This document shows, piece by piece, positions 4,637 through 63,150 of a stretch of 64,000 bases of DNA. The notes below the pieces were generated by a model. It ran no database searches and was not told the DNA's origin. It worked only from the letters and a program-made list of their open reading frames with translations. The DNA comes from Natrinema halophilum. Lineage in GTDB: Archaea; Halobacteriota; Halobacteria; Halobacteriales; Natrialbaceae. Position numbers and translations under genes: made by a program. The stretch spans positions 2,108,001-2,172,000 of the forward strand of contig NZ_CP058601.1 of the NCBI RefSeq assembly GCF_013402815.2, given 5' to 3'. Positions within the stretch are counted from its first letter, which is position 1; every line of letters starts with the position of its first letter.

Positions 4637-5617
4637 TTACTCGACCGCCGGCCGGATTCGATCGGCGTATTCGGTGACGAGCGACTCGTCGGGCCGGAAG
4701 TCGCCGGTCCAGACAGCGTCCGGATCGATCGCACCTTCTAGCAAGGCCGTCTCGGAGAGCGTCTCGCCGAGTCGGCGCCACCGGTCAGGATCCTGTGCGC
4801 CCCACCCGTGTTTCCGGACGTACGACGTGAACTGGAGTCGATTCGCGGCAGTCTCGAACTTGAGCTGCTCGATATCCCGATTGCGCTCGAGCGTGGCGTT
4901 TCGCCCGACGAGGACGTCGATGGCACGCTCCGGATCGCGGGTCGCGGCGGCCCAACCGCGTGCGCTCGCCCGAAGGAACGATCGGATCGTCTCCGGTCGA
5001 TCACGGGCGAACTCGGGACCGGTAACGAGCGTCATACCGTAGATGTCCAGGTACTCGCCGATCGGGAGTTCGTCGGGGGTCCGGTCGTGTTCGCGGCCGA
5101 TCTCGATTCCGTTGGTGACCACGCCGACTGCGGCGTCGACCGTGCCGTCGATCACCTTGTGCTGGACCCGGTGGTGCGTGTGCGGATCGACGTCCAGAAG
5201 GTCGACCTCGTCGCGAATACCCGCGTTCTCGAGCAGTTGCGCGGTGAGGATCCGCGTCTTCGTCGCGGACGGCGCGACGGTTCGACCCGCCAGCTGTGCG
5301 GGTTTCGAGAGTTGCTCGCCGAAGACGTCCCGCAGGGTGTAGACGGCCGCCGGGGTCTTCTGTGTCACCGCCGCGACCGCGAGCGGTTCGAACCCCTTGC
5401 TCTGCGTCGTCAACACAGCACTGGCCCCTGCGAGAGCGATGTCGGCGTCGCCACGTGCAGCGCGTTCGGCCGCGTACGGCGAACCGTGCCCCTCGACGAA
5501 CTCGATTTCGAGACCCTCTGCCTCGTAAAATCCCTCCTCGCGGGCGAAAAAATAGGGCGACTGGAATCCGTTGGGCTCCCAGTTGAGCTGAAAGGTGACG
5601 GTGTCTGACGCGGTCAT
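4637..5617 (-). CDS. cytosolic substrate-binding-protein homologue (NMT1/THI5-like), third of three
   Basis: 326 residues with the fold signature of NMT1/THI5-type periplasmic binding proteins: FQLNWEPNGFQSPYFFAREE at the N-terminus, then a first-lobe DIALAG motif and a GVVTNG hinge region. There is no signal peptide, twin arginine or lipobox, so the product is predicted to stay in the cytosol, unlike a transport receptor. Its ATG overlaps the stop of the upstream homologue by 4 bases (5614-5617), so the two are translationally coupled. Family members include ABC receptors for pyrimidines, taurine or nitrate and enzymes such as yeast THI5. I cannot tell which applies; the lack of a signal favours an enzyme or sensor. 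Confidence 0.85.
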   Translation of the reverse strand: MTASDTVTFQLNWEPNGFQSPYFFAREEGFYEAEGLEIEFVEGHGSPYAAERAARGDADIALAGASAVLTTQSKGFEPLAVAAVTQKTPAAVYTLRDVFGEQLSKPAQLAGRTVAPSATKTRILTAQLLENAGIRDEVDLLDVDPHTHHRVQHKVIDGTVDAAVGVVTNGIEIGREHDRTPDELPIGEYLDIYGMTLVTGPEFARDRPETIRSFLRASARGWAAATRDPERAIDVLVGRNATLERNRDIEQLKFETAANRLQFTSYVRKHGWGAQDPDRWRRLGETLSETALLEGAIDPDAVWTGDFRPDESLVTEYADRIRPAVE

Positions 5618-6612
5618 GCGTCCACCTCGAGATCCGTTCGGAACAGGCCGTTTGGCAACTCGTCGACGCCGAGGGCGTCAGCGCCGGCGACCGTCTTCAA
5701 ACGGTCGAAGAGTCGCTCCATTCCCTCGACGGTAGACGCGTCCCAGTCCGTGACGACCATCGCGCGCCATCGATCGCGGACGGCCCGGACAACGGCCGGA
5801 TCGTCCTCGTACATGAGTTGCTCGCCGATCTCGTCCCAGAGTGCGTCGTCGCGCTGGAGTCGTTCGACCGCGTCCCGGTAAGCACCCACGAACCCGCGAA
5901 CCGCGTTGGAGTGGACGGACAGATACGCTTCGCTCGTCAGGAACGTCGAGATCGGAGTCGGGCCGTCGGAATCGGCCAGGCGATCGACCAGCCGCGACAT
6001 CGGCAGTACCTCCCGGAAGGGGCCGACTTCGACTATCTCCGGGATTATTTGCCAGAATTGGAGGACCGCGTCGACCTCTCCGTCGCGGAGTAGTCGGGTG
6101 AGTTCGACCTTCGATCCGGCCTCGATCGGCGTCGCCGTCTCGTCCGGATCGAAGCCGTGAAACTCCCGGCAGGCCGCCCTGACGAGGATCCAGTTTTTGT
6201 CGCGACGTCTGACGACGCCGATCCGGCGGCCCGAGAGATCGTTGAGGCCCTCGATCGGCGAGTCGGCCGTCGTGACGAGACCGCCAACCGTCTGTCCGTA
6301 GGGATGAAAGGCGACGATCGACGCGCCGTCGGCACGCTCGCGCGCGGTCGAGAGGTAGTCGATGTCGATCAGATCGGCGTCCCCGTCCTGGAGTTTCGCT
6401 TCGACAGTCTCGAGGCCGTCGTCCAGTTCATCCGAGACGAGTTGCAAGTCGAGGTGGAAATCGTGATCGTGATCGTAGCCGAACCGCTTGATCGTATACA
6501 GCATGTATCGGGGGCTGCCGTTGTGTTCGAATCGAGCCCGCATCACCGGTCGGTCGCCGGCGTGACCCTGAAACTCGTCGATCGCCTTCTGTTGTGAATC
6601 GATGTCAGTCAT
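5614..6612 (-). CDS. cytosolic substrate-binding-protein homologue, second of three
   Basis: 332 residues from the ATG at 6612. The frame runs on upstream to 7332, but that part is Arg-rich and antisense to the preceding gene. It has a two-lobe binding-protein organisation: DADLIDIDYL, GRRIGVVRRRDKNWILVRAA and VDAVLQFW are typical first-lobe and hinge segments. There is no export signal. It lies 35 bases after the first homologue and overlaps the third by 4 bases, so all three form one operon. No permease or ATPase gene is in the window. The ligand is unknown. Confidence 0.85.
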   Translation of the reverse strand: MTDIDSQQKAIDEFQGHAGDRPVMRARFEHNGSPRYMLYTIKRFGYDHDHDFHLDLQLVSDELDDGLETVEAKLQDGDADLIDIDYLSTARERADGASIVAFHPYGQTVGGLVTTADSPIEGLNDLSGRRIGVVRRRDKNWILVRAACREFHGFDPDETATPIEAGSKVELTRLLRDGEVDAVLQFWQIIPEIVEVGPFREVLPMSRLVDRLADSDGPTPISTFLTSEAYLSVHSNAVRGFVGAYRDAVERLQRDDALWDEIGEQLMYEDDPAVVRAVRDRWRAMVVTDWDASTVEGMERLFDRLKTVAGADALGVDELPNGLFRTDLEVDA

Positions 6613-6647
6613 TGGTGGCAAAGTGGGATACTGGTCGGAACGGGCGG

Positions 6648-7541
6648 TCACAGCGGCGCGACGATGTCGTCTATCGCCGCTTTCTCGTCGATCAATCCGC
6701 GAGCCTGCATCCAGGCGAGGTGCTCGTCGAGCGTCTCGCGGTCGACGGGGACTGGCACCCCGAACCGCGGAACTGTAATTTCCTTGCGGACGGTCTCGAC
6801 GTCGACCTCGTCGAACAGTTCCGGAGCCATCGATTCCTCGGCCTCGAGCATCTCGAGGTACGTCTCCCGGAACGCATCCGGATTGGCGTTGATGTCCGCG
6901 ACCGCGCACTCGTAAGCGCGCAGGAAGGCTGCGAGCAGGTCGCGGTCGATGTCGTCGCTTCCGACGATCCCCATGTGATTGTCGTACTCGAGAAGCCGCC
7001 GAAATCCGAGGTGATCGGCCAGGGTACTGTGGGGGTCGATGAGCGTTACGGCGTCGACGCGACCGTCGTGGAGGGCCTGCAACCGGTCGGTCGGCATCCC
7101 GCAGCCGACGAGGTCGATCTCGTCGGGCGGGACGTGATCCTCGAGGGCTTTCCGCGCGGTATACTCCTGGCCGGTTCGCCGATTGACACCGACCGGTACG
7201 TTTTCGAGATCCGCAGGCGATTCGATAGCGGAATCTGGCCGAGTAAAGACGGTATAGGGGAGATTGGCGAACGTTCCGTTCGCGACGATGCGTCCGTCGT
7301 CCATGTCCCACGTTCTGCGGATGCTCTCCCACTTGCAGATGGGGTACAGATCGACGTCGTAATCGCCAGTCAGCGTCTCCTCGGCGGGAATGTACTTGAC
7401 TTCGACGTCCCGACGGTCGCGCTCGACCAGATCGACCGCGATTCCTTCCTCACGAAAGTATCCCCGCTCGACCGCCACCTTCTGTGGCAGCATAAACGAG
7501 AACGGAAGATGAAACAGTCTTACTGGTTGGTGTGTTAACAT
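6648..7541 (-). CDS. cytosolic substrate-binding-protein homologue, first of three
   Basis: 297 residues from the ATG at 7541; a GTG four codons upstream is possible. It starts MLTHQPVRLFHLPFSFMLPQ, with no signal peptide. Binding-protein features are TRPDSAIESPADLENVPVGV, VDAVTLIDPH and a helical C-terminal lobe. It resembles the solute-binding/dihydroxyphthalate-decarboxylase-like superfamily in outline, but the substrate cannot be named. It is the first gene of a three-gene operon and faces a cupin gene across an 83-base divergent promoter region. Confidence 0.85.
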   Translation of the reverse strand: MLTHQPVRLFHLPFSFMLPQKVAVERGYFREEGIAVDLVERDRRDVEVKYIPAEETLTGDYDVDLYPICKWESIRRTWDMDDGRIVANGTFANLPYTVFTRPDSAIESPADLENVPVGVNRRTGQEYTARKALEDHVPPDEIDLVGCGMPTDRLQALHDGRVDAVTLIDPHSTLADHLGFRRLLEYDNHMGIVGSDDIDRDLLAAFLRAYECAVADINANPDAFRETYLEMLEAEESMAPELFDEVDVETVRKEITVPRFGVPVPVDRETLDEHLAWMQARGLIDEKAAIDDIVAPL

Positions 7542-7624
7542 AGAACACCCCACACCGCTGAGATGCTTAAAACGTTTTCACAATACGTTTATCAGTGGCG
7601 GCGTGGGGAGGGAAGCCTGTTCCT
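7542..7624. promoter_or_regulatory. divergent promoter region with a short inverted repeat
   Basis: An 83-base gap between divergent start codons. An inverted repeat AAACGT (7570-7575) and ACGTTT (7585-7590) lies in an AT-rich stretch that must hold TATA boxes for both directions. It could be an operator shared by the binding-protein operon and the cupin gene (inference). Confidence 0.4.
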
Positions 7625-7987
7625 ATGGAACGAGTATCGACGACCCGTGCGGAGTCAGAAGAAGTCGCGGACGGCGTGCACCTGGCACCGCTCTCGACGG
7701 GTAACCGAGCGGGAATGATCTACTGGCGGATCGAGCCGGGGGCGACCTTGCCGGTCCACGCGCACGCAAACGAACAGTTAGGATTCGTCCTCGACGGTGA
7801 ACTCACTGCAATCGCCGAAGACGAAGAGTACGAACTCTCAGCCGGTGATGCCTACCTGTTTCGAAGCGATGAACGTCACGGTGCGGAAAACCGAAGTGCC
7901 GAAGATGCGGTCGGTCTCGGCGTGCTCGCGCCACCACGCGACGAACCGGAGTGGCGTCGGCAACCGTCGGCCGTCGAGGACCCATGA
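7625..7987 (+). CDS. small single-domain cupin protein
   Basis: 120 residues from the ATG at 7625; an earlier in-frame start at 7595 would run through the promoter region. Cupin motif 1 is seen as PVHAHANEQLGFVLDGE (metal ligands His, His and Glu) and motif 2 around AYLFRSDERHGAENRS (metal-ligand His). This is a cytosolic beta-barrel, probably metal-binding. It is divergent from the three binding-protein homologues, which suggests a common pathway, but the reaction is unknown. Confidence 0.85.
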   Translation: MERVSTTRAESEEVADGVHLAPLSTGNRAGMIYWRIEPGATLPVHAHANEQLGFVLDGELTAIAEDEEYELSAGDAYLFRSDERHGAENRSAEDAVGLGVLAPPRDEPEWRRQPSAVEDP

Positions 7988-59008: not shown

Positions 59009-59671
59009 ATGGCAATCGACCTGCCGCCCGCGGTCGCCGACGACTGGCAGCGCGTGGGCCGCCGAACCGACGATCGGACCCTTTCGCTCGCAACGATCAC
59101 GACCGAGACGGCCGTGTTCGAACACCAGCCGACCGCCGACGCTCTCGAGCGGCTTCGATCCGTTGGCGACGTTCCGGTGCGGTCGCTGTTCACCGTCGAC
59201 GTACGCATCAGCCCATCTCTGGAGACGATCGGCCTTTCGGCAGCCGACGCGCTCGAGGTCGCCGCCCCCAACGCTCGCGACCAGTTCGTCGACACCATCG
59301 AAGACGACGAAATCGCCGTTCGAGGCGAACGCACGAGCGAACACATCGATCGACCGGACGGGGCGGTCGGTCACCTCAGCGTTCTCGAGACCGCGTACCC
59401 GATCGACACGACGAATACGTCCGATACGGTCGAAGCCGCTGGCGCAGACGCCAGCATCGACGCGGAAGCACACGTGGCTATCTGGCCCGCCGACGACGCG
59501 TACGTCCTGGCCGGCGGGCTGCTTCCGCTCGAAGGTCCCGACGGCGCCGACCTCCTCGCCGCTGCGCTCGACGTCGATCCGGCCCGCGATCGCGAGGCAA
59601 TCGTCGACCTGTTTCGGGGACTCGATCTCGGAGCGCCAGCCGGAAACGGGGTTTCCGACGGTCTCGAGTGA
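59009..59671 (+). CDS. conserved haloarchaeal protein of unknown function
   Basis: 220 residues, begins MAIDLPPAVADDWQRVGRRT. A beta-rich fold with an acidic surface (LFTVDVRISPSLETIGLSA, HVAIWPADDAYVLAGGLLP). No signal, lipobox or membrane segment. I do not recognise a named family. It starts 51 bases after the symporter and could be cotranscribed. It is convergent with the M50 protease gene, 93 bases away. Confidence 0.75.
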   Translation: MAIDLPPAVADDWQRVGRRTDDRTLSLATITTETAVFEHQPTADALERLRSVGDVPVRSLFTVDVRISPSLETIGLSAADALEVAAPNARDQFVDTIEDDEIAVRGERTSEHIDRPDGAVGHLSVLETAYPIDTTNTSDTVEAAGADASIDAEAHVAIWPADDAYVLAGGLLPLEGPDGADLLAAALDVDPARDREAIVDLFRGLDLGAPAGNGVSDGLE

Positions 59672-59764
59672 AGTCACTCTCAGATCGAACGGGAGCGTTC
59701 GCGCTCGGGATGGCGAAATGATCGACGGAAGACCCCAATCGAATGCACGACGGGGTTTCCAGGC

Positions 59765-60685
59765 TCAGAGAAGCCCCAGCGCGCGTCCGAGAAAGTAGCC
59801 GCTCGCGGCGACGAACCAGCCGGTAAAAACGACTATCGCGAGTCCGAACGCCGCTTTTGGCGTCGGTCGCCCTCGCTTGAGATCCCTGAACGCGTGGTTG
59901 CGAAGGTTGTGGGTCCCGAATACGTCGACGAACAGCCAGTAGCCGTCGCCGTCGATGAGCGGATTGAAGACGAACAGCAGCCGAAACAGCTGGACGAGGA
60001 TTAGCGAGCCGAGGATGGCGGAGTCGGGAGAGAGCGTCAGCGCTATCGCAAGGCCGAGCGTGACGACGATATCAACGATCGGTCCGGCGAGGCTAATCCA
60101 AATGCGAACGTTTCGCGGACACTGCCAGGCGTCCCTGGTTCGAGTTATCACTGCCGGAATGATGCCGTTCAGTCGCCCGATCGTGATCGACGGTTCGAAA
60201 TAGGGCCGGCTGGCGGCGTAGTGGCCGAACTCGTGGAGAAGTGTCGCTCCGATGAAAAACGGCACGATGACGAACGTATTCCCGATCGAACCCGGTGGAC
60301 TCCAGATCGGTCCCCAGTTGGCGACCACCAGCGCGCAGAGTGCGAGCGTCATCCCTGCAGCCACTACGAGTCGCGGCCACAGACGGATATCCCCCGGAGT
60401 CTCGACCCGTCGTATTTCGCCTCCCGGCTCGAGGTATCCGCCTTCGGCCAGCAGGTCGACCGCCTCCAGAACCTTCGGGTCGACTGACGATGGCTCGCTC
60501 TCACCGACGGCGAGTTTGCGCAACGGCTCCTGAAACGCCGGATCGATGCGCTTGTATTCGCCGTCGTCGTTTCGGATCCAGATCGTCCCGTCGGTTTCGC
60601 CCCAGGTATACCCGAAATTTCGGCGTATTTCGGTCCCGTCCCGTTCCGAATCGTCATCGGAGATTGCATCGCTGGAAACCGTCAT
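59765..60685 (-). CDS. M50 (site-2-type) metalloprotease with a PqqD-like N-terminal domain
   Basis: 306 residues. N-terminal about 25-95 (GTIWIRNDDGEYKRIDPAFQ, VDPKVLEAVDLLAEGGYLEP) has the length and pattern of a PqqD-like RiPP recognition domain. Transmembrane segments from 105 on. Zinc site HEFGH at 151-155 and NPLIDGDGYW at 241-250 (Asp245 likely ligand). Site-2-type proteases cut within the membrane. Its start overlaps the stop of the ATP-grasp gene by 4 bases (60682-60685), so the two are cotranscribed. Likely processing or export of the small peptide at 61867 (inference). Confidence 0.82.
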   Translation of the reverse strand: MTVSSDAISDDDSERDGTEIRRNFGYTWGETDGTIWIRNDDGEYKRIDPAFQEPLRKLAVGESEPSSVDPKVLEAVDLLAEGGYLEPGGEIRRVETPGDIRLWPRLVVAAGMTLALCALVVANWGPIWSPPGSIGNTFVIVPFFIGATLLHEFGHYAASRPYFEPSITIGRLNGIIPAVITRTRDAWQCPRNVRIWISLAGPIVDIVVTLGLAIALTLSPDSAILGSLILVQLFRLLFVFNPLIDGDGYWLFVDVFGTHNLRNHAFRDLKRGRPTPKAAFGLAIVVFTGWFVAASGYFLGRALGLL

Positions 60686-61617
60686 GGGTCGGCGAGAAAC
60701 GCAGCGAGTTCGTCGGCGACACGCGTACCCGCGAGTTCATCGAACGTCGCGAACATCGGCGACGGGTTCGCCTCGAGAACGACGAAGCGGTCGGAGCCGT
60801 CGATGACGTCGACGCCCGTAAACGGGAGTTCGAGTTGCGTGGCTGCACGGCACGCTGCTCGTTCGATTTCGGGATCGAGAGAGTCGAGTGGAATCCGTTC
60901 GACGTCGTGTTCGACGCTGCGATAATCGAGCGCGTCCGAGACGATGCGGGCGGCGGCGACTGCCTCTCCGTCGACGACGAACACGCGAACGTCGTCCCCG
61001 TCGATCCGCTCTTGAAACTGTACCGGGGAGTTTGCGAGCCGAGTGAGGCGTTCGTCTTCGAGATCATCCTTCTCGAGGCGGTGTGCGTGGCCGCCACCGG
61101 TGACGGGTTTGTAGATGACGTCCTCGACGCGGTTTGCGAACGTCCGTACCTCGTCCGGATCGTTCGTCGAGCACGTCTCCGGTACCGGAACCCCGGCCGC
61201 AGAGAGCGTCGAGAGCTGCCAGGGTTTCAGATCGTGAATACTCATCGCCTCGGGCGGATTTATTACCCGTACACCTTCGTCCTGAAGACGCTTGACTGCA
61301 GATAGAAGGAGACCCCGGTATTCGCGTATCTGATTGATCACTGACAGCGGGCGCTCATCTAACTCGGACTCGAACTCCGGATAGCGGGCATCGAAGCCGA
61401 GCTGTCGCAAGTAAATCGTGTGATATTCCGCCGGGATCTCTTCGGTGTCGGCTACCGAAACGCTCGTTTGGTCTCCGACGTGTCGAACCGTCGCCGGCAC
61501 GTCGCCGGGCCAAGACGATGCGTCCCACAGCGCCGTTTCGACCCCCCGTTTCTCGAGTTCTCGTGTCACCGCTTTCACCTGCAGGTCCGCTTCTGGACCG
61601 ATTAACAGTACACCCAT
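60682..61617 (-). CDS. ATP-grasp ligase (RimK/graspetide-type)
   Basis: 311 residues. N-terminal preATP-grasp fold (VLLIGPEADLQVKAVTRELE). ATP-grasp core: DLKPWQLSTLSAAGVPVPET with Lys131, VIYKPVTGGGHAHRLE (Lys170, glycine loop), RIDGDDVRVFVVDG and the metal-site end FTGVDVIDG/VLEANPSPM with Asp270, Glu282 and Asn284. This is the family that includes RimK, tubulin-like ligases and MvdC/MvdD, which form ester or amide bonds between side chains in graspetides. It is next to a short precursor gene and a PqqD-like/M50 protein. Confidence 0.87.
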   Translation of the reverse strand: MGVLLIGPEADLQVKAVTRELEKRGVETALWDASSWPGDVPATVRHVGDQTSVSVADTEEIPAEYHTIYLRQLGFDARYPEFESELDERPLSVINQIREYRGLLLSAVKRLQDEGVRVINPPEAMSIHDLKPWQLSTLSAAGVPVPETCSTNDPDEVRTFANRVEDVIYKPVTGGGHAHRLEKDDLEDERLTRLANSPVQFQERIDGDDVRVFVVDGEAVAAARIVSDALDYRSVEHDVERIPLDSLDPEIERAACRAATQLELPFTGVDVIDGSDRFVVLEANPSPMFATFDELAGTRVADELAAFLADP

Positions 61618-61866
61618 ACGCCGAATTATTTAGCTACTATACCAATAACACTATTGAAGTTAGATTGCGTATTTTACGTATCGATGTAGATATATAACCG
61701 TCCTTTTGAACCCGAAGAGGTTCACGATCCAATCCGTGACCGGAATTGGGCCCGTTACCGAGCCGCAGCCGTGTGTCAATGTCATCTGGTAACAGCCATC
61801 AATAATTGCGTGAACTTGCATGATTTAGAAAGTTTAATAGTGAGTTGTCTTCAACCAGCAATTTGC
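61618..61866. promoter_or_regulatory. divergent promoter region of the RiPP locus
   Basis: An AT-rich 249-base gap between the ATP-grasp start (61617, minus) and the precursor start (61867, plus). TATA GTTTAATAG (61832-61840) is 27 bases before the precursor ATG. Hairpins GAACC-CGAAGA-GGTTC (61708-61723) and TCACG-loop-CGTGA (61722-61739) could be regulatory. A TATATA stretch near 61690 could serve the minus-strand operon. Confidence 0.6.
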
Positions 61867-62007
61867 ATGACAGCAGAAAATAACGACGGTGTGCACTTCG
61901 TCGAAGACCTCGAAGAACGATCGAACGCCTCTCCGATGGTTACGACACTGGCAATCGGTGAGGAAGGTGGAGTCACGACGCTGGCCTGTGCGGAAACGGG
62001 CTGCTAG
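61867..62007 (+). CDS. RiPP precursor peptide candidate (graspetide-like)
   Basis: 46 residues, ATG at 61867, stop TAG. Leader MTAENNDGVHFVEDLEERSN (1-20), then ASPM and a 22-residue core made of two 11-residue repeats: VTTLAIGEEGG (25-35) and VTTLACAETGC (36-46). Thr and Glu residues sit five apart in both repeats (Thr27-Glu32, Thr38-Glu43), as expected for side-chain ester links made by ATP-grasp ligases. Two Cys are at 41 and 46. A TATA box lies 27 bases upstream; a terminator-like hairpin follows. An upstream in-frame extension to 61771 is unlikely. Confidence 0.78.
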   Translation: MTAENNDGVHFVEDLEERSNASPMVTTLAIGEEGGVTTLACAETGC

Positions 62008-62046
62008 TGTCGCTCGAGGCCGAACTGACGAGTGGAACCGGACGCA

Positions 62047-62110
62047 CTTTCCCGGATAGCCGCCTCGGCTGACACCGGGAAAGACACGAGAGAAACGCTC
62101 CTCTGTTTTT
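62047..62110 (+). terminator. stable hairpin after the precursor gene with a following T run
   Basis: CTTTCCCGG (62047-62055) pairs with CCGGGAAAG (62075-62083), with an inner stem AGCCG-CCT-CGGCT (62058-62070). A T5 run lies at 62105-62109. It could terminate or stabilise the short precursor transcript. Confidence 0.5.
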
Positions 62111-62238
62111 GTGACACACCGTTGCGTCGAACAGCAGTTGGCAGATCGGTACTCGACTGAAAAAGCCCGCAGCAGGTTTTCGTCGGACGCGTTCGGGAGT
62201 CTGGTGGTTTTTATACCGTCCGGTCACCTCTACAGTAT

Positions 62239-63150
62239 ATGCAAACGCACATCGTTCCGGTCGGCTTCGACTACGACCGGCTGATCGCGCCGCTCGTCCG
62301 TGATCAGATCGACGTCGACAGCGTCATCCTTCTCGAGGGAGCCGTCGGCAGCGAGGCCAACGTCGAATACTCCCGGCACCTCTCGAAGAAGCTCGAAACG
62401 GATTTCAAAAACCTGCTCGGCGCGCAGACGAACCGATTTATTCTTGAGGATGTGTACAACTACGACGAGGCCTTCGAACAGGCTTACGACCTTATTACGG
62501 CGGAACTCGACCGAGGAAACGAGGTCTGGGTTAACGTCGCTGCAATGCCTCGGACCGTGAGTTTCGCCTTCGCGAACGCCGCCCACTCGCTGATGGTCGA
62601 GCGCCAGGAGGATCGAGAGGGGATACATACCTACTACACTGCCCCCGAAAAGTACCTCGAGACAGAACTCGCCGAAGAACTGCGCGAACAGATCGCACTG
62701 CTCGAGGAATTTCTCGAAGCAGAGACGGCGCCCGATATCGAGGGCGACCGAATCGAGACCCGCCTGGAAAGTGCCCGCCACCTACTCGACGAATTCGACG
62801 AACGCGGGACGACCATCGGCGCGAAGGAGATCGCCGGCAAACACATCGTCGAGTTGCCGGTCGCCTCTTTTTCGAACGTCAAGCCGTTCGAGGAGCTCAT
62901 CCTGTACAAGCTCGGTGAAGATGGAGAGTTCGATTCGGTCTCGGAACTCGCGGAGTCGTTGGCCCGCGAACTCAACGAGGAGTACACCGACAGTTTCCGC
63001 TCGAAAGTGATCTACAACGTCGACCGCCTGGGACCGGGTGGGAAAGGTTACATCGAACGCGAGGAACACGGCAAATCGTACCGGACGCGATTGTCACGAA
63101 TCGGCGAACTGTGGGTGCGCGCTCACTCCAACGACGACATCGACGACTGA
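62239..63150 (+). CDS. CARF-like HTH regulator (HFX_2341/DUF6293 type)
   Basis: 303 residues. The N-terminal Rossmann-like half (HIVPVGFDYDRLIAPLVRDQ, WVNVAAMPRTVSFAFANAA) resembles CARF domains; the C-terminal half is a winged-helix (FEELILYKLGEDGEFDSVSE, SKVIYNVDRLGPGGKGYIER). I recall this family as HFX_2341. Members are related to the CRISPR regulator Csa3, but no CRISPR array or cas gene is in the window. It begins 231 bases after the RiPP precursor stop; a link to it is open. Confidence 0.88.
   Translation: MQTHIVPVGFDYDRLIAPLVRDQIDVDSVILLEGAVGSEANVEYSRHLSKKLETDFKNLLGAQTNRFILEDVYNYDEAFEQAYDLITAELDRGNEVWVNVAAMPRTVSFAFANAAHSLMVERQEDREGIHTYYTAPEKYLETELAEELREQIALLEEFLEAETAPDIEGDRIETRLESARHLLDEFDERGTTIGAKEIAGKHIVELPVASFSNVKPFEELILYKLGEDGEFDSVSELAESLARELNEEYTDSFRSKVIYNVDRLGPGGKGYIEREEHGKSYRTRLSRIGELWVRAHSNDDIDD

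Follow-up and report, generated by a model that had tools for sequence, protein, structure and literature searches.

A conserved three-gene locus of haloarchaea that is very likely to encode a graspetide-type peptide pathway

Introduction

Described systems close to the locus analyzed here include the graspetides, which belong to the ribosomally synthesized and post-translationally modified peptides (RiPPs); in plesiocin-type graspetides, the unit of the core is TTxxxxEE. We analyzed a stretch of 64,000 nucleotides of the haloarchaeon Natrinema halophilum (contig NZ_CP058601.1, positions 2,108,001–2,172,000 of the forward strand), which is called the window throughout and to the positions of which the coordinates refer. 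It contains genes for a short precursor peptide, an ATP-grasp ligase, and a membrane M50 protease with an additional N-terminal domain. Together, the three genes very likely make up a RiPP pathway of the graspetide type that is compact and haloarchaeal.

For plesiocin, thuringinin, and microviridin, an order in which the nucleophile precedes the acid has been stated (PMC7823629, available part). A survey from 2026 comprises 21,584 predicted graspetides and reports a high co-occurrence of group 2 with an NHLM-type transporter, and its group 36 is confined to Thermoprotea (PMC13097080, available part). The preliminary description of the window, made from the sequence alone, had treated archaeal graspetides as uncharacterised; this has to be corrected, since group 36 had already been predicted in print. 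The words 'archaea' and 'M50' do not occur in the available text of that survey, the supplementary tables of which lie outside this comparison and may hold haloarchaeal entries. A survey of archaeal RiPPs (PMC12144867, 2025) names YcaO, radical SAM, lanthipeptide, and lasso types, and neither 'graspetide' nor 'ATP-grasp' occurs in its available main text or in that of PMC10105419. Likewise, 'halo' and 'M50' are absent from the available main text of Makarova et al., 2022 (PMC8939145), and no description of the three-gene cassette was found in the parts examined of the literature on archaeal or haloarchaeal RiPPs, graspetides, and M50 proteases.

Results

A conserved gene trio

The three reading frames of the preliminary description were all recovered, including the overlap of 4 bases between the protease and ligase genes (Table 1). 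If the short gene belonged to the system, it should be conserved in the vicinity of homologous ligase genes, and indeed a gene with a homologous leader is present at 25 distinct loci. The searches covered 391 Halobacteria genomes, a drawn sample of the class, and scored at most 5 first-look candidates per genome for the ligase and the protease and at most 19 for the precursor profile. The ligase (E ≤ 1e-20) has 18 places, which are distributed over 15 genomes. The protease, searched for independently (E ≤ 1e-15), was found at 15 places in 14 genomes, each of them beside a ligase place; the ligase places without a protease of their own are G147:C9, the second ligase in the G176 locus, and G381 (locus L036; loci and genomes are designated by L and G numbers). 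Natrinema gelatinilyticum, Halovivax sp. KZCA124, and Natronolimnohabitans sp. A-GB9 joined the list when named genomes were scanned, and a family-wide search, in which 9 of 125 genomes were positive, contributed one more distinct locus (L040). Altogether, 25 distinct loci from 22 haloarchaeal genomes harbor the ligase and the precursor, and 24 of them also harbor the protease. L041, L042, and L043 share an identical stretch of 1000 bases with L020, L021, and L022, respectively, and were counted once. A phylum-wide search with the M50 protease yielded, in addition, four partial matches, none scoring above about 85 bits, in genomes assigned no further than to the same phylum, and these were set aside; no ligase of the family was found in the four stretches that were fetched.

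The overlap of 4 bases between the M50 and ATP-grasp genes recurs at L020, L021, L023, L027, L028, L029, and L034. The spacing is 0–7 bases at L022, L024, L025 (with an uncertain start), L026, L031, and L037, the two genes overlap by 11 bases at L038, and at L033 the protease gene lies on the opposite strand, 369 bases from the ligase gene; L030 and L035, for which the M50 starts were guessed, were left out of this comparison. The position of the precursor gene differs among the loci. In the window it is divergent from the ligase gene at a distance of 249 bases, and elsewhere it is found divergent upstream of the ligase gene, downstream on the other strand or, at L027, upstream on the same strand. 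A TTTAATA stretch is located 34 bases before the ATG of the window precursor, which might fit a leaderless haloarchaeal start; a simple pattern near that distance is seen in few homologues.

The ATP-grasp ligase

Pfam classifies the ligase as RimK-like. Its best NCBIfam model is that of a ribosomal-peptide maturase, TIGR04187 (106.8 bits), ahead of TIGR00768 (RimK, 94.4 bits) and NF040720 (MptN, 91.9 bits), and all 21 ligases of alignment A1 match TIGR04187 at E ≤ 1e-10. The solved structure closest to the ligase, 7drm (E 2e-49, 171.7 bits), is followed by one at 49.2 bits; for the profile of the family, the corresponding values are 262.7 and 104.0 bits. The structure table lists 7drm as 'ATP-grasp domain-containing protein', and we take it to be PsnB, the plesiocin ligase. 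Arg211 of the window ligase aligns with Arg233 of the 7drm chain, presumably Arg213 of PsnB, the reader of the acidic residue. Arg211, Asp270, Glu282, and Asn284 are identical in all 28 aligned ligase rows. Judged from its sequence, the window ligase is of the graspetide-synthetase type, as had been proposed in the preliminary description; the comparison with group 2 was made with solved structures only.

At three loci of one genus, two ligase genes occur in tandem, namely at L033 (Halorussus salilacus; 5688–6644 and 6740–7666), L143 (5015–6385 and 6027–7124), and L144 (5002–5943 and 6043–7254). In one copy of each tandem, Lys131 is replaced by Arg and Lys170 by Gln, both positions being Lys in most other rows, while Arg211, Glu282, and Asn284 are kept; the variant copy may be an inactive partner subunit. 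The cores at these loci are of the TSxxxDD/TSDPTWD kind. L036 contains a distant ligase homologue on a long branch, with no M50 gene and no recognizable precursor within about 5 kb. It was retained in the ligase alignments and excluded from the cassette count.

The precursor family

The C-terminal part of the window precursor (MTAENNDGVHFVEDLEERSNASPMVTTLAIGEEGGVTTLACAETGC) consists of the two 11-residue repeats noticed before (residues 25–35 and 36–46). When ten homologous precursors, without that of the window, were combined into a profile, this picked the window reading frame out of 6574 stop-to-stop frames (20 residues or longer) with an E value of 6e-23. In a leave-one-out analysis of 20 precursors, in which the members of four pairs of closest relatives were withheld together, 17 were recovered at E values from 7e-14 to 8e-5 (window, 1.3e-11). 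The weaker cases were L037 (6e-4), L032 (0.056), and L038 (0.14), and the best frame other than a precursor scored 0.59 or worse. Among the 391 genomes, all 16 places with E ≤ 2e-7 were at known loci, from which the profile had been built, and the search brought up no additional intact precursor; below these, there was one relic (3.2e-4), followed by 27 matches with E values of 0.004–0.1, which were taken for chance. The most stringent test was a prediction made in advance for 18 genomes of the genus of G172, which had supplied some rows of the profile. At E ≤ 0.001, the profile marked 11 places. Five of these were new, and all five newly predicted short genes turned out to adjoin a ligase and a protease gene when their surroundings were fetched after the prediction.

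In the closely related pair L024 and L026, the numbers of changes at codon positions 1, 2, and 3 are 1, 0, and 10. Of 38 codons compared between the window and L020, 11 carry an amino acid change and 8 a silent one, so that this pair is less clear-cut with respect to gene status. Searches with the precursor gave no match in the PDB, no family in Pfam, and only a chance match in NCBIfam (shikimate dehydrogenase, E 0.11).

His10, Glu13, Glu16, and Arg18 are conserved in at least 90% of the 20 aligned precursors. Most leaders contain H-[FYLV]-[VI]-E-x-[LI] or a close variant (e.g., TFIEAL or HLIGEL), followed by a motif resembling E-x-R-x-[NS]-[AT], beyond which the sequences differ widely. The TTxxxxEE unit, TTLAIGEE in the window, is also present at L020, L021, L027, L028, L029, and L040. 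The second unit of the window, TTLACAET, is reduced, and core repeat 2 is kept as T-[ML]-[AS]-C-x-E-T-G-C at L020, L021, L028, L029, and L040.

Core spacing and cores without acids

For an analysis of residue spacing, the 25 precursors were represented by 14 core types, some of which are related and hence not all independent; the rule for the core boundary was written after the sequences had been seen, and all spacings from x2 to x8 were tried. The pattern [Ser/Thr]-x4-[Glu/Asp] occurs in 10 of the 14 core types, that is, in all ten that contain Asp or Glu. Shuffled cores had it in 2.57 types on average, and none of 2000 shuffles reached ten. No other spacing equals x4; the second most common, x5, is present in six of the 14 types, a number attained by 14 of 2000 shuffles. 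The TTxxxxEE unit of plesiocin-type cores contains the same x4 loop as the haloarchaeal cores. For the window, this spacing predicts the links Thr27-Glu32, Thr26-Glu33, and Thr38 (or Thr37)-Glu43.

The cores that lack both acids (e.g., ...VVSTPITWFGG and ...RVTCPLSC) are those of five precursors, L031, L032, L034, L140, and L142; that of L032 is acid-free by the boundary rule, yet a D and an E fall just before the boundary. The corresponding ligases all belong to one clade of seven (support 82/94, with an open fork), which also holds two ligases with acid-bearing precursors, L030 and L035, and the members retain Arg211, Asp270, Glu282, and Asn284. The cores of L030 and L140 are alike (TGPNGDIFV and TGVMGNVYFGA), with Asp in one at the place of Asn in the other.

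The M50 protease and its N-terminal domain

His151, Glu152, and His155 of the HEFGH motif (residues 151–155), a zinc site already recognized in the preliminary description, are invariant in 16 of 16 homologues, as is the distal NPxxxGDG stretch; L030 and L035, the starts of which are unclear, were omitted from this alignment. Pfam M50 is matched at E ≤ 1 by all 16. Asp247 is presumably the third metal ligand, as in the M50 family. The epipeptide protease model NF058609 matches the window protease at E 5e-6, under its cut-off.

The N-terminal domain alone was modeled by AlphaFold2 together with three homologues, with a mean predicted local distance difference test score (pLDDT) of 91.7 and a fold of three strands, two helices, and a strand (bbb-a-a-b). 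The top match of VIA-align was 6jx3_B, a lasso leader-binding protein with its leader (Z 6.4, root-mean-square deviation 2.3, 66 of 81 residues), and 5v1u, 5v1v, 8t19, and the sactipeptide enzyme 5why/5wgg were also listed (Z 4.4 to 5.1). A Z score of this modest size indicates a fold resemblance to leader-binding domains and is no proof of kinship. In addition, a profile of the 16 archaeal proteases aligned with three bacterial M50 proteins (hhalign probability 99.7%, E 3e-25 for the whole alignment). This co-linearity starts at residue 30 of the window protein and runs alongside the PqqD domain of an Anoxybacillus protein (residues 34–101), with an insertion in the latter. A comparison of the domain profile with haloarchaeal stand-alone PqqD sequences gave a local score of 24.7, as compared to at most 15.1 in 60 column shuffles (probability 45.7% over 24 columns, 15% in global mode), which is suggestive only. 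The predicted fold, the structural match, and the co-linear alignment with bacterial M50 proteins make it very probable that the domain is a RiPP recognition element. The earlier assignment of a PqqD-like N-terminus is thus supported by the fold model and the co-linearity, and not by a Pfam PqqD match.

Mobility of the cassette

At least two of the loci are on plasmids, those of Halocatena salina and Halorussus salilacus; the plasmid gene tables, which are known to be incomplete, list no gene at the place of the precursor. No relative was detected in two scans of viral contigs. In each of 28 further genomes of the genus, the two genes flanking the window cassette have matches that share contig and strand and are separated by 49–3128 bases. 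In 19 of these 28 genomes, the gap is shorter than 1100 bases, so that the cassette of 2243 bases does not fit, and in G396 and G397 the cassette is found on the opposite side of the HFX_2341 gene. Another genome of the same genus, G203, contains a degraded precursor (DVHSVEDLEERSNAPPMATVLAP...; L145, about 4640–4760, minus strand) with no ligase or protease gene found in the surrounding 10 kb; it is probably the relic of a lost cassette. Taken together, the flanking gaps, the placement in G396 and G397, and the degraded precursor of G203 indicate that the cassette seems to come and go. The interval between the flanking genes (window 59671–62239) may be a site where different material comes and goes. 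The right neighbor in the window (62239–63150) is a regulator of the HFX_2341 family (566 bits), which is present in all 29 genus members searched and is outside the cassette.

Table 1. Positions of the genes, domains, and motifs of the gene trio in the window
Feature	Position	Strand	Remarks
Precursor peptide gene, 46 aa	61867..62007	+	Leader 1–21, core 22–46 (presumed boundary); homologues in 24 other distinct loci
Leader motif HFVEDL, residues 10–15	61894..61911	+	Presumed recognition site; conserved His10 and Glu13
ERSNA motif, residues 17–21	61915..61929	+	Presumed leader end/processing region; Arg18 conserved, diverse sequence after it
Core repeat 1, VTTLAIGEEGG	61939..61971	+	Pattern TTxxxxEE; Thr26/Thr27 and Glu32/Glu33 predicted to be linked
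Core repeat 2, VTTLACAETGC	61972..62004	+	Predicted link Thr38-Glu43; two Cys
ATP-grasp ligase, graspetide-synthetase type by sequence	60682..61617	-	7drm E 2e-49; TIGR04187 106.8 bits
Membrane M50 (site-2 type) protease with leader-binding-like N-terminal domain	59765..60685	-	Invariant zinc site; NF041824 E 1.5e-13
N-terminal domain of the protease, residues 18–98, predicted RiPP-recognition-element/PqqD-like fold	60392..60634	-	AlphaFold2; structural match 6jx3_B
HEFGH zinc site, protease residues 151–155	60221..60235	-	Sequence; H, E, and H invariant in 16/16
NPLIDGDGYW with the presumed third metal ligand Asp247	59936..59965	-	N241, P242, G246, D247, and G248 invariant in 16/16

Discussion

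The gene trio and its conservation, the type of the ligase, the leader/core pattern, and the zinc site are evident from the sequences, and the fold of the N-terminal domain is predicted with confidence. The type of the ligase, the leader/core pattern, the predicted fold of the N-terminal domain, and the M50 site agree with, and support, a graspetide-type pathway. Everything beyond the co-occurrence of homologous genes we infer, including the ester bonds and their number, the assignment of proteins to parts of the leader, the site of cleavage, and the export by the protease. The ligase would bind the leader via HF[V/I]ExL, phosphorylate the side chains of the core Glu residues, and join them to the hydroxyls of Thr residues. 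Up to three ester rings could be formed in this way between the pairs predicted from the spacing, with a mass loss of up to 54 Da, possibly followed by a disulfide between Cys41 and Cys46. The RiPP-recognition domain of the M50 protein would hold the leader, and the protease would cut near the ERxN[A/T] motif and, by analogy with EpeP (PMC10885120, available part), release the ring peptide to the outside. Such a release would substitute for the NHLM-type transporter that is common with group 2. The likeliest roles of the product would be protease inhibition, as for plesiocin and the microviridins, or antagonism between haloarchaea.

Several observations weigh against this interpretation. Scores remain under the curated cut-offs for the ligase (TIGR04187, 106.8 bits with a cut-off of 350) as well as for the protease, both with Pfam M50 (15.3 bits, cut-off 27.2) and with the daptide protease model NF041824 (E 1.5e-13, 50.7 bits, cut-off 300). 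Pfam PqqD (PF05402) is matched neither by the window protein nor by its N-terminal part alone nor, at E ≤ 1, by any of the 16 homologues, and Foldseek by itself found no significant match for the N-terminal domain (best E 0.2). The Z score of 6.4 is within a range that may mean a mere common arrangement, the VIA-align list also contains the non-RiPP proteins GdmN (Z 5.1), NovN, and NO66, and the bulk of the hhalign probability of 99.7% probably comes from the M50 part and not from the N-terminal domain. The model of the full-length M50 protein, made with four sequences, was poor (pLDDT 47) and was excluded from the fold searches. Finally, one of the 25 loci, L032, lacks an M50 gene, and four of the 14 core types are devoid of Asp and Glu. 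In the chemistry known for graspetides, the nucleophile has to be followed by an acid, and the ligases that go with the acid-free cores may therefore form another bond. Either this is the case or a part of the pathway has been misread, as standard graspetide chemistry offers no explanation for these cores. A bond new to graspetides, in the simplest case from a Ser, Thr, or Cys side chain to the C-terminal carboxylate of the same peptide or, alternatively, to leader acids in reverse order, is conceivable though rather doubtful.

The acid-free cores would also fit a ligase that adds an amino acid or another amine to the carboxylate of the peptide, in the fashion of RimK and without cyclisation, followed by trimming by the M50 protease. 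The RimK fold, with its matches to the RimK and MptN families (TIGR00768, 94.4 bits; NF040720, 91.9 bits), would suit such an activity, and the M50 proteases TglG and TmoG of the pearlins remove modified residues from the C-termini of peptides (PMC10885120, available part). However, TIGR04187 scores higher than both models (106.8 bits), 7drm is far above the RimK structures, and the addition of an amino acid would give the [ST]x4[DE] spacing no reason to exist, so that we consider this explanation decidedly improbable. The chance proximity of a small protein unrelated to the ligase, such as a regulator or a part of a toxin-antitoxin system, can be dismissed almost entirely: the varying position of the short gene relative to the ligase gene would be in line with it, but the short gene is found near a ligase gene in 25 distinct loci, five cases were predicted by the profile before the neighbors had been examined, and the core type tracks the clade of the ligase.

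Another explanation concerns the protease, which might serve immunity or regulation while a general protease cuts the leader, given that the proteases encoded next to graspetide genes may act either in maturation or in resistance (PMC13097080, available part). This is unlikely in view of the resemblance of its N-terminal domain to leader-binding domains of RiPP systems and of its association with the ligase, which it adjoins in 24 of the 25 loci, with no occurrence elsewhere among the matches listed for the 391 genomes at E ≤ 1e-15. Moreover, its best NCBIfam models are those of daptide and epipeptide maturation proteases, both under the cut-off. A graspetide-type pathway comprising all three genes is therefore the explanation that we hold with considerable confidence. 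It would define, for haloarchaea, a candidate route of three genes that leads to peptides cyclised through their side chains. Since the leader is fairly constant and the core variable, and since there is one ligase and one protease, it offers a small, testable system for the recognition of leaders by a membrane protease, and the acid-free cores of one clade open the way to a test of what else a graspetide ligase can join.

Comparison with described systems

Epipeptides are made by radical SAM enzymes, and their protease EpeP/YydH is, like LiaK and the window protease, a small M50 protein. Both the cleavage of the peptide and its export are attributed to EpeP as a likely function (PMC10885120, available part). 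Group 36 of the graspetides, compared here by its description alone, is predicted to be archaeal, like the window system, and often co-occurs with a protein that weakly resembles a chromosome-segregation family (PMC13097080, available part).

The fusion of a leader-binding domain with an M50 protease had been regarded as unusual; it has, however, a bacterial precedent. A protein of Anoxybacillus amylolyticus combines Pfam PqqD (32.2 bits) and M50 (37.8 bits), and the bacterial alignment headed by it shows the co-linearity with the window protease family. In contrast to the window protease, it belongs to a bacterial thiocillin-family cluster, where its gene has a lantibiotic dehydratase gene and one of thiopeptide type as neighbors, with no ATP-grasp gene among the genes shown. 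The daptide protease MpaP is a weaker parallel. It likewise comes from a RiPP cluster and is an M50 protein extended at its N-terminus (BLAST, 26% over residues 5–295), but it has 543 aa as compared to 306 aa for the window protein, and the daptide cluster shows mpaB, C, D, and M, with no ATP-grasp gene among those listed. A Hymenobacter plasmid (L092, 2692–5019) carries an M50 gene matching the daptide model (E 7e-29, under the cut-off) beside a gene for a 309-aa protein that matches no family clearly and a gene of 49 aa; this is possibly an uncharacterised RiPP cluster.

The plesiocin pathway of group 2, the ligase of which is PsnB and was compared here through 7drm, shares with the window a single ATP-grasp ligase and repeat units of the form Thr-Thr-x4-Glu-Glu. 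No ABC transporter is listed in the gene tables of two haloarchaeal loci, which are known to be incomplete. In contrast to plesiocin, the window system is archaeal, and its precursor of 46 aa contains one full and one reduced unit.

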